Assembly: GCF_027532185.1 (NCBI RefSeq)
Contig: NZ_JAPZSV010000001.1
Location: 186,001-250,000 of the forward strand
Source: Hylemonella sp.
GTDB taxonomy: Bacteria; Pseudomonadota; Gammaproteobacteria; Burkholderiales; Burkholderiaceae_C
Length of the DNA stretch: 64,000 nucleotides
Direction: 5' to 3'
A program made the translations under genes and the position numbers. Within the stretch, counting starts at the first letter, position 1, and every line of letters starts with the position of its first letter. The notes beneath the pieces are model-generated. The model was not told where the DNA came from and did no database searches. It was given only the letters and a program-made list of their open reading frames with translations. Of the stretch, positions 21,236 to 23,722 are shown piece after piece.

Positions 21236-22306
21236 ATGAAAATCGCAGTTCTGCCGGGTGACGGCATCGGTACCGAAATCGTGGCCGAGGCCGTCAAGGT
21301 CCTCAAGGCGCTGGACCTCAAGTTCGAGATGGAAACCGCACCCGTGGGCGGCGCCGCCTATGAGGCATCGGGCCACCCCCTGCCCGAGTCCACGCTGAAT
21401 CTGGCCAAGTCCGCCGATGCCATCCTCTTCGGGGCCGTGGGCGACTGGAAATACGACAAGCTCGAGCGCGCCCTGCGGCCCGAGCAGGCCATCCTGGGCC
21501 TGCGCAAGCACCTGGGCCTCTACGCCAACTTCCGCCCCGCCATCTGCTACGAGCAGCTGACGCACGCTTCCAGCCTCAAGCCCGAGCTCGTGGCCGGCCT
21601 CGACATCCTGATCGTGCGTGAACTCACGGGCGACATCTACTTCGGCCAGCCGCGCGGCCGCCGCACGGCGGTCGATGGCCATTTCCCCGGTGCTGAAGAA
21701 GCCTTCGACACCATGCGCTACAGCAAGCCCGAAATCGAGCGCATCGCCCACACCGCCTTCCAGGCCGCGCGCAAGCGCAACAAGAAGGTCACCAGCGTGG
21801 ACAAGGCTAACGTGCTCGAGACCTTCCAGTTCTGGAAAGACGTGGTCACCGAGGTGCATGCCCAGTACCCCGACGTGAAGCTGGAGCACATGTACGTGGA
21901 CAACGCGGCCATGCAGCTCGTGAAGGCGCCCAAGAGCTTCGACGTCATCGTCACCGGCAATATGTTCGGCGACATCCTGAGTGACGAAGCTTCCATGCTC
22001 ACCGGCTCCATCGGCATGCTGCCCTCGGCCAGCCTGAACAGCAAGAACCAGGGCCTCTACGAACCCAGCCACGGCAGCGCCCCGGACATCGCGGGCAAGG
22101 GCGTGGCCAACCCCCTGGCCACCATCCTCTCGGCCGCCATGATGCTGCGTTTCAGCCTCAACCAGGAGGAAGCCGCCAAACGCATCGAGGCCGCCGTGCA
22201 AAAGGTGCTGAGCCAGGGCCTGCGCACGCCCGACATCTGGAGTGAGGGCACGACCAAGGTCGGCACCGCGCAGATGGGCGATGCGGTGCTCAAGGCACTG
22301 GGCTGA
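21236..22306 (+). CDS. leuB: 3-isopropylmalate dehydrogenase
   Basis: NAD-dependent oxidative decarboxylation of 3-isopropylmalate, 356 aa. The N-terminal [20 protein letters not shown], the [17 protein letters not shown] substrate loop, and the [20 protein letters not shown] then [15 protein letters not shown] motifs identify LeuB. It is the last gene of leuCDB, closed by a terminator 27 bp after its stop. Confidence 0.98.
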
Positions 22307-22333
22307 GCACGCTGTCGTCAGCGTCCACGCACC

Positions 22334-22359
22334 AGGGCAGCCGCTGGGCTGCCCTTTTT
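22334..22359 (+). terminator. Rho-independent terminator of leuCDB
   Basis: An 8-bp stem AGGGCAGC / GCTGCCCT with a 6-nt loop is followed by CTTTTTC. It lies just upstream of the candidate asd leader promoter. Confidence 0.85.
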
Positions 22360-22378
22360 CTTTCCTCACGCCATCCGC

Positions 22379-22384
22379 TACAAT
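22379..22384 (+). promoter_or_regulatory. -10 candidate for the asd leader transcript
   Basis: TACAAT lies after the leuB terminator and 7 bp before the leader ATG at 22392. Transcription would begin at or next to the ATG, making a leaderless or nearly leaderless small ORF. The -35 region is weak and T-rich. Confidence 0.4.
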
Positions 22385-22391
22385 CGAGCGC

Positions 22392-22490
22392 ATGTTCGCC
22401 GCCTGCCCGTTCTCCCTGAACACCGCTACTGCCGCCCCGGCAGGCGGGGCCGTGTGCGCAACAACCAAAACCACGACCATTAAGGGCTGA
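22392..22490 (+). CDS. Candidate 32-aa leader peptide upstream of asd (Thr/Lys/Ile-rich)
   Basis: A 32-codon ORF sits between the leuB terminator and asd. Its end reads ATTKTTTIKG, so five Thr, two Lys and one Ile codon fall within the last nine codons. Thr, Lys and Ile (and Met) all derive from aspartate semialdehyde, the product of the downstream Asd enzyme. That fits a ribosome-stalling attenuation peptide, as known for thr and other amino-acid operons. A stem-loop (CCGGCTC / GAGCCGG, 22493-22537) follows the stop, then a weak CAGT-GAGC-ACTG hairpin with TTTT (22547-22562). I see no strong terminator, so the mechanism is open. Expression is not shown. Confidence 0.45.
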   Translation: MFAACPFSLNTATAAPAGGAVCATTKTTTIKG

Positions 22491-22582
22491 TCCGGCTCTG
22501 GCATCGTCGTGCGCCCTTCCCGGCCAGACGAGCCGGGGCAGACAGTCAGTGAGCACTGTTTTAGATACTGAAAGGGCATCAG

Positions 22583-23722
22583 ATGAGCAAGGTTGGCAAT
22601 GTCGTCGGTCTCGTCGGCTGGCGAGGCATGGTGGGTTCGGTCCTCCTGGACCGCATGCAGGCCGAAGGCGACTTCGCCCTGATCGAACCTGTGTTCTTCT
22701 CTACCTCCAATGCTGGTGGCAAGGCCCCGGCCCTGGCGAAGAACGAGACCACCCTCAAGGACGCCAACAGCATCGAGGACCTCAAGAAGTGCGACATCGT
22801 CCTGACCTGCCAGGGGGGTGACTACACGAAAGAGGTCTATCCCAAGCTGCGCGCTGCGGGCTGGAAGGGCCACTGGATCGACGCGGCATCTGCCCTGCGC
22901 ATGGCTGATGACGCCGTCATCATCCTGGACCCCGTCAACCGTCACGTGATCGACCAGTCGCTGGCCCAGGGCGGCCGCAACTGGATCGGCGGCAACTGCA
23001 CCGTGAGCCTGATGCTCATGGGCATGGGCGGCCTGTTCAAGGCTGGCCTCGTCGAATGGGTCAGCGCCATGACCTACCAGGCTGCCTCCGGTGCCGGCGC
23101 GCAGAACATGCGCGAGCTGCTGAGCCAGATGGGTGCCCTGCACGACGCCGTCAAGGCCGAACTGGCCGACCCGGCCTCGGCCATCCTGGACATCGACCGC
23201 AAGGTGGCCGCCACCATGCGCGACGCCAGCTTCCCGACCAAGAACTTCCGCAACACGGCCTTGGCCGGCAGCCTGATCCCCTGGATTGACGTGCCCGTCG
23301 AACACGGCCAGAGCAAGGAGGAGTGGAAGGGCGGCGCCGAGTGCAACAAGATCCTGGGTAACCAGGCCTTCCGCAGCGCCGGCAGCATCCCGATCGACGG
23401 TCTGTGCGTGCGCATCGGTGCCATGCGCTGCCATTCGCAGGGCCTGACCGTGAAGCTCAAGAAGAACGTGCCCATGGCCGAGATCGAAGGCCTGCTGGCT
23501 GGCGCCAACGACTGGGTGAAGGTGGTTCCCAACCAACGCGAGATCACCGAGCGTGAACTCACGCCTGCTGCCGTGACGGGCACCCTCACCGTGCCGGTCG
23601 GTCGCCTGCACAAGCTGGCCATGGGCGACGAGTACCTGGGCGCCTTTACCGTGGGTGATCAGCTGCTCTGGGGTGCGGCCGAACCGCTGCGTCGCATGCT
23701 GCGCATCCTGCTGCAGGCCTGA
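22583..23722 (+). CDS. asd: Aspartate-semialdehyde dehydrogenase
   Basis: NADPH-dependent conversion of aspartyl phosphate to aspartate semialdehyde, the branch point for Lys/diaminopimelate, Thr, Met and Ile. The protein is 379 aa, the gram-negative type. The nucleotide loop [15 protein letters not shown], catalytic cysteine in [22 protein letters not shown] and [10 protein letters not shown] are present. It lies 93 bp after the stop of a candidate leader ORF. About 210 bp of non-coding sequence separate it from fimV, with no clear terminator. Confidence 0.97.

Follow-up and report, generated by a model that had tools for sequence, protein, structure and literature searches.

What does a short ORF rich in threonine, lysine, and isoleucine codons do in the gap between leuB and asd? 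Asd is the enzyme at the branch of lysine, threonine, methionine, and isoleucine synthesis, and the original prediction for this locus proposed that a 32-codon ORF ending ATTKTTTIKG, lying between the leuB terminator and asd, encodes an amino-acid-responsive leader peptide. We addressed this question in a 64,000-nucleotide stretch of Hylemonella sp. DNA (contig NZ_JAPZSV010000001.1; the window) and in the genomes of its relatives. The ORF is where it was predicted to be (22392–22490), eight of its nine final codons specify Thr, Lys, or Ile as had been counted, and a TACAAT box does lie 7 nt ahead of its ATG. On the evidence below, the element that begins with this ORF is very probably an amino-acid-responsive attenuator of asd. 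The features of the window locus are as follows.

21236–22306, plus strand: leuB (3-isopropylmalate dehydrogenase), the upstream gene; TIGR00169 above cut-off (NCBIfam).
22334–22360, plus strand: intrinsic terminator 3′ of leuB, with its stem at 22334–22355 followed by a T tail (terminator scan).
22379–22384, plus strand: TACAAT −10 box, the hexamer being followed by the ATG at 22392 after 7 nt.
22392–22490, plus strand: leader ORF, 32 codons and TGA.
22458–22487, plus strand: regulatory codons ATTKTTTIKG, the final ten codons of the leader ORF.
22495–22508, plus strand: 5′ arm of helix H1, GCTCTGGC-A-TCGTC, with its partner at 22527–22539 (from folding and covariation).
22513–22518, plus strand: anti-Shine-Dalgarno segment GCCCTT within the H1 loop, complementary to 22572–22577.
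22519–22524, plus strand: 5′ arm of helix H2, CCCGGC, with its partner at 22532–22537; competitor of H1.
22527–22539, plus strand: shared 3′ arm GACGAGCCGGGGC, used whole in H1 and at 22532–22537 in H2 (triple covariation).
22540–22561, plus strand: weak hairpin H3, AGACAGT/ACTGTTT, preceding the Shine-Dalgarno region.
22570–22579, plus strand: Shine-Dalgarno region of asd, GAAAGGGCAT.
22583–23722, plus strand: asd (aspartate-semialdehyde dehydrogenase), the putative regulated gene; TIGR01745 above cut-off (NCBIfam).

The leader ORF translates to MFAACPFSLNTATAAPAGGAVCATTKTTTIKG. Across the six frames of the window, 1,734 stops have ten open codons ahead of them, and the leader ORF alone has seven or more Thr/Lys/Ile among those ten; three others have six. 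A Pfam search with the leader peptide gave no match, and a search of the 3.33 Mb genome (13 contigs) placed the peptide at a single site, the window locus. The leader stop and asd are separated by 92 nt containing inverted repeats. The CCGGCTC/GAGCCGG repeat that had been described as a stem-loop is present (22492–22498 and 22530–22536), but folds and relatives pair its 3′ copy differently, once within a longer helix (H1) and once within a short hairpin (H2) that competes with H1. The 5′ arm of H1 in the window carries an additional A relative to most members. The original prediction had also named as a weak point that no strong T-tailed terminator follows the leader, and the terminator scan indeed returned only the leuB terminator. 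The attenuator reading itself is supported, and its mechanism had to be recast as competing helices whose target is most likely the asd ribosome-binding site.

Absence of the ORF or of its Thr/Lys/Ile run from close relatives had been named in advance as one result that would refute the prediction, and the comparison did not bear this out. A blastn search with 22455–22600 found a match in 45 of 120 relatives, and we built a covariance model (R1) from 41 aligned core copies. R1 matched 316 of 399 genomes of the family, in 125 of 141 genera, at E ≤ 0.1, a threshold that over 399 genomes permits up to about 40 chance matches. E values reached down to 7.8e-15 among the family matches listed, and all 36 genomes chosen from the weaker scorers gave E ≤ 0.01 when searched again with R1. 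The element copies comprise 172 instances, 166 of them distinct, and an asd start lies downstream in 165 of the 166. The Thr/Lys/Ile run, the spacing from stop to stem, and the stems themselves are kept widely in the family, and the codons retain their Thr/Lys/Ile identity even where they are part of leuB. Rfam 15 covariance models gave nothing near a gathering score in window positions 22300–22700 (E ≤ 10) or in 20 member loci (E ≤ 1). The closest named relatives of the window asd are from Curvibacter sp. and a Burkholderiales MAG (97%), followed by Burkholderiales, Comamonadaceae, and Limnohabitans MAGs.

When R1 was run on 399 genomes of the order, 57 matched at E ≤ 0.1, 12 of which belong to the family itself. 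The matches outside the family are weak, and 18 such loci (L153–L170) have no asd. Five of these 18 were read for gene context: three from one genus (L153, L155, L159) share one common site, which in L153 lies inside lptG, and the match in L154 lies inside a glutathione-peroxidase gene. We treated the outside-family matches as chance. Within the family, 83 of the 399 genomes have no R1 match. We compared a set of element-lacking loci (19 of the 20 no-match genomes listed, plus 10 weak ones), in which asd was found in 27 of 29. Under a rule of at least six Thr/Lys/Ile in the last 12 residues, nine of these loci retain a Thr/Lys/Ile tail on leuB, and only three of the seven readable ones have GGGC/GGCG in the asd Shine-Dalgarno region, so the element weakens there. 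Sixteen loci fall below the tail rule, and GGGC/GGCG is found in none of the 15 that are readable. One locus ending GKPAITTKH (L282) falls below this rule yet counts as leuB-borne under the looser rule (at least five) of the leuB tree described below.

The Thr/Lys/Ile codons occur in two settings. In 119 of the 166 distinct copies they end a stand-alone ORF, as in the window, and in the remaining 47 leuB itself ends with them, in frame. Of the 117 stand-alone leaders whose start could be assigned, 96 are 32–34 codons long, and the spacing of −10 box and start that had been pointed out in the window proved to be conserved: a TANNNT hexamer lies 6–10 nt ahead of an in-frame start in 117 of 119, with TACAAT in 83 and the starts being 116 ATG and 1 GTG. 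The rule used here (4–10 nt, every in-frame start allowed) was satisfied by 7.5% of shuffled controls. Because the box lies so close to the start codon, we infer that the leader mRNA is leaderless, beginning at or beside the start codon. TGTCAG or CGTCAG was noticed by eye about 27 nt before TACAAT in many stand-alone leaders (L006–L009, L011, L014, L091, L112, L115, L122, and L141) and was not seen in the window; it may represent a −35 region or the binding site of a regulator.

The composition of the tails is what a leader with a run of codons for pathway products would have, and the conservation of the frame suggests that the run is translated. Thr, Lys, and Ile make up 79% of the last ten residues in stand-alone copies and 69% in leuB-borne copies, compared with 12% and 19% at residues −25 to −13, and by frame across the 166 copies they account for 76% in frame and for 2% and 11% in the other two. 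The lysine and isoleucine codons are also skewed: AAA is 0.55 of Lys codons in the tails versus 0.21 in the asd/leuB stretches of the compared loci, and ATT is 0.53 of Ile codons versus 0.20. The order of the three residues differs among members (ITIKTTTIKG, TITKTTTIKG, ITKKTITG, TTTTKTIKG), and Gly comes last in 112 of 119 stand-alone copies and in 38 of 47 leuB-borne ones. All 11 rows with AGC (Ser) as the last codon have GCT past the stop, a hint that the Gly codon may matter to the RNA. A hairpin at the stop codon (H0) was considered and set aside, its mean energy being −6.24 versus −6.13 for permuted pairs (best permuted, −6.46), with only the AGC/GCT co-change in its favor. By eye, GCGCGC inside the leader could pair with GTGCGC past the stop.

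Downstream of the codons, the distance from the leader stop to TCGTC is 10–13 nt in 160 of 162 parsed copies (four of the 166 could not be parsed for H1). H1 pairs (CC)GGTTCGTC with GACGAGCC(GG), and H2 pairs CCCGGC with GCCGGG; because the 3′ arm is common to both, the two helices are mutually exclusive. We assessed covariation on an independent MAFFT alignment holding 122 of 139 near-distinct rows. The 17 rows left out are L191 and 16 leuB-borne copies, most with a different 3′ arm, and the pair counts therefore cannot speak for them. In the 122 rows, H1 was 97.7% paired with 19 double-change cells and H2 was 94.8% paired with 22, and none of 500 shuffles reached as high for either helix, with the caveat that permutations and shuffles ignore phylogeny, so that related rows inflate these counts. 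The covariation scores of both helices also exceeded all 500 shuffles, and pairing dropped to at most 54% when either helix was slid by 1–3 columns. Pairs with double changes (two in H1, three in H2) were as numerous in 41 and 91 of 500 shuffles, since few positions vary, and the number of pair types was matched by 41 and 96 of 500. The clearest link between the helices is a position of the shared arm that is A in 21 of 149 rows (13 of the 162 could not be placed in this table); in 19 of these 21, both 5′ arms carry T, the exceptions being L218 and L192. Spacing and covariation thus describe mutually exclusive helices that are placed to respond to ribosome position. In three members (L104, L106, L107) both helices appeared by eye to be kept despite a changed shared arm and a loop insertion.

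The H1 loop holds GTGCGCCCT, a complement to the Shine-Dalgarno region of asd, GAAAGGGCG. We could score 161 copies for Shine-Dalgarno pairing and accessibility. The duplex of each anti-Shine-Dalgarno segment with its own asd start averaged −11.31 versus −10.81 when permuted among copies (best of 200 permutations, −11.03), and when extended with adjoining H1 nucleotides it was −16.80 versus −16.40 (best, −16.75). Against outgroup asd starts the extended segment gave −11.99, and −11.44 after shuffling. The target co-occurs with the element: GGGC/GGCG is present in the asd Shine-Dalgarno region of 89% of the 161 copies versus 5% of 56 outgroup asd genes and none of the 15 readable family loci below the tail rule. 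In the folds, TTCGTC paired strikingly with the start codon of asd, but the own-partner energy (−5.11) was no better than permuted (−5.28), and we do not claim this pairing.

Fold predictions were made with ribosomes placed along the leader; as equilibrium folds, they cannot decide for or against a switch that operates during transcription. Of the 15 copies drawn, 13 (all except L008 and L107) adopted a predicted OFF fold when the ribosome stood at the stop. In this fold the anti-Shine-Dalgarno segment pairs with the Shine-Dalgarno region, enclosing H2 and, in copies that have it, H3; together with the complementarity and its co-occurrence, this points to sequestration of the Shine-Dalgarno region by one of two alternative folds. 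With a stall six codons before the stop, the OFF fold persisted in 8 of the 15. In the window, predicted Shine-Dalgarno accessibility was 0.17 with the ribosome at the stop and 0.37 with no ribosome, and stalls before the stop gave 0.52 (two codons), 0.66 (six), and 0.71 (eight); a stall at four codons gave 0.19 and the OFF fold. In 114 stand-alone copies, moving the ribosome from the stop to the six-codon stall changed H1 from 0.12 to 0.68 (its loss at the stop being partly built into the fold mask), H2 from 0.96 to 0.34, and the anti-Shine-Dalgarno pairing from 0.65 to 0.31. The same shift in the 47 leuB-borne copies took H2 from 1.00 to 0.81, the anti-Shine-Dalgarno pairing from 0.67 to 0.54, and H1 from 0.00 to 0.13, the last being under-scored where the 3′ arm differs. 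Over the 161 copies, mean accessibility went only from 0.35 to 0.42, rising by more than 0.05 in 59 copies and falling in 22, and the anti-Shine-Dalgarno pairing fell by more than 0.1 in 71 copies and rose in 16. Modeling backs the switch in part: the shift is clear in stand-alone copies and small in leuB-borne ones.

The ORF, its codons, the spacing, both helices, and the Shine-Dalgarno complementarity with its co-occurrence can be read from the aligned sequences, and from them we propose a model in which the supply of charged tRNA-Thr, tRNA-Lys, and tRNA-Ile would be sensed as a ribosome translates the Thr/Lys/Ile codons, either of the leaderless leader ORF (as in the window) or of the end of leuB (as in other members). 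When the amino acids are plentiful, the ribosome would reach the leader stop and cover about 10 nt beyond it, including the outer half of the 5′ arm of H1. With H1 blocked, H2 would claim the 3′ arm, leaving the GCGCCCT segment free to pair across H2 and H3 with the Shine-Dalgarno region of asd and so turn asd off. If instead the ribosome stalls at the Thr/Lys/Ile codons on an uncharged tRNA, H1 would form first and use up the shared arm, the anti-Shine-Dalgarno segment would be kept in the H1 loop, and asd would be on. An output at the asd ribosome-binding site would explain the missing terminator. We hold this complete scheme, a ribosome-sensed attenuator acting mainly on the initiation of asd translation, to be the probable one, with less assurance than the attenuator assignment as such; its presumptive parts are that ribosomes stall, which way the response runs, that control is mainly translational, and which amino acids are sensed.

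The leading alternative retains the leader and the switch and makes H3 an intrinsic terminator, as in classical transcription attenuation of the thr, his, and trp leaders. H3 has a mean z of −1.2 against shuffles, and a hairpin with at least five T in eight at its end is found in 57 of 109 stand-alone copies, which fits such an output. The same tail is found in only 6 of 44 leuB-borne copies, however, and we therefore rejected a terminator as the output shared by all members; the window H3 (−5.2 kcal/mol versus −5.5 for shuffles) is no better than shuffled sequence, and none of the alternative helices in the window is an intrinsic terminator with a U tract. Since H3 overlaps neither H1 nor H2, the switch would leave it uncontrolled, and the complementarity to the Shine-Dalgarno region would go unexplained. 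We consider transcription attenuation unlikely as the general mechanism; a transcriptional component in some members is possible, and H3 may be either a spacer within the OFF fold or else a weak terminator. A variant in which the OFF fold prevents translation of asd, with loss of the mRNA downstream through Rho or decay, would fit the OFF fold and a C-rich stretch noticed by eye between the stop and H2; we give it a low probability.

Two further explanations concern the ORF itself. As with TnaC and SpeFL, which are known for nascent-peptide arrest, a peptide ending (I/T)KG-stop might halt the ribosome in response to a metabolite and not to uncharged tRNA. The prevalence of the terminal Gly in both settings would fit, but the order of residues varies within Thr/Lys/Ile, AAA and ATT are enriched, and the AGC/GCT co-occurrence hints at a role of the Gly codon in the RNA; together these make arrest quite improbable, slightly more so than transcript loss. 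Finally, the nucleotide conservation of the core is high enough that one could imagine a chance ORF in a conserved noncoding region, such as a protein-binding site or the leuB 3′ UTR. We regard this as scarcely credible, given that Thr/Lys/Ile are favored in one frame only, that the frame is open from a start behind the −10 box in 117 of 119 leaders, and that the run is exchanged in frame with the leuB end in 47 copies.

That exchange returns us to our preferred reading of a codon-sensing attenuator. The leuB-borne tails end, for example, in ...MGDAVVAAITKTKG (L001, L002), ...VVAALGAQQAITTTIKG (L109), and ...VVAAITTTTKTIKG (L195), and the window LeuB, which precedes a stand-alone leader, has no Thr/Lys/Ile tail at its C terminus. 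Among loci with enough leuB sequence for comparison, the part of LeuB after the MGxAV motif contains a mean of 7.2 Thr/Lys/Ile in 33 leuB-borne copies; where the leader stands alone (39 copies), the mean is 0.8 and the maximum 1. In the group assigned neither form (125 loci) the mean is 1.04 with a maximum of 11, the latter because this group includes the tail-retaining family loci without an element match. In a tree built from 103 leuB rows (43 leuB-borne, 39 stand-alone, and 21 with neither; 10 of the 43 are family loci without a fetched R1 match), parsimony requires 16 changes of the leuB-borne state, and well-supported branches force at least two, on a tree that is weakly resolved and whose outgroup is spread beyond one side of any branch. 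The swap retains the codons and the RNA and drops the remaining peptide, as a codon-reading attenuator predicts. It is likely that some members of the family carry the Thr/Lys/Ile tail on LeuB for the sake of the RNA switch of asd, and that in evolution this tail has been exchanged with a stand-alone leaderless ORF. If so, the gene for a full-size enzyme of another pathway, and not a leader peptide, acts as the amino-acid sensor, and a conserved C-terminal tail can owe its existence to RNA regulation rather than to the protein that bears it.

The thrL attenuator of the enterobacterial thr operon is a short Thr/Ile-rich leader peptide ahead of aspartate-family genes, and the asd element has in common with it a codon-rich leader followed by alternative RNA helices. 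Unlike thrL, the asd element also has Lys codons, has asd as its gene, starts leaderless, and is found in betaproteobacteria; its helices are tied to Shine-Dalgarno pairing, its terminator is weak at best, and its sensor can be the leuB end. In the translational attenuation of ermC and cat, a leader ORF is followed by competing helices, and sequestration of the Shine-Dalgarno sequence is released by a stalled ribosome. The asd element resembles these in its leader ORF, its competing helices, and its predicted sequestration, but the signal for ermC and cat is an antibiotic, whereas the signal proposed here is amino-acid supply. The ermC leader is reported to control translation without amino-acid specificity (PMC2965389). 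The LEU element upstream of leuA in Actinobacteria is reported to pair its leucine codons with the Shine-Dalgarno box, with a pseudoknot proposed (PMC1262725). Compared by description, the two differ in that the LEU element pairs the codons themselves, whereas the anti-Shine-Dalgarno segment of the asd element lies past the stop in the H1 loop; we found no codon:Shine-Dalgarno pairing of the LEU type in folds in which the upstream codons were partly masked, the predicted partner being past the stop. In the papers we searched, a set with few subscription journals and in part screened by title and opening of the abstract, we found no RNA control of asd. If the model holds, asd is under RNA control in a large betaproteobacterial family, by an element, small and well delimited, that combines a leaderless sensor ORF, amino-acid attenuation through the ribosome-binding site, and regulatory codons that a neighboring enzyme gene can carry at its 3′ end.

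Several individual loci deserve mention. The one distinct copy without asd downstream (L218, 1–438, minus strand) is a complete element directly ahead of a GNAT acetyltransferase gene. Another locus (L264, around 1400–1500) has H1-like arms between leuB and asd, with the Thr/Lys/Ile codons and the Shine-Dalgarno GGGC gone, and is apparently a decaying copy. A contig labeled Alphaproteobacteria (L017) carries a typical element and an asd of the window's family, and the label is probably wrong. Among L083–L111, L001, and L002, the asd genes behind the element fall into two classes, 84–100% or 66–73% identical to the window asd, even within the genus of the window (L088 from genome G006), which looks as though asd was exchanged and the attenuator kept. 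In Parvibium lacunae (L023), which has no R1 match, an unrelated ORF ahead of asd ends in the Thr/Lys/Ile run ISTIKTIKTIIG, and in another family of the order (L299, from genome G084, also without an R1 match) an unrelated ORF before asd ends IASIKRTTTIITKTVMKG; these two ORFs are possible convergent attenuators.
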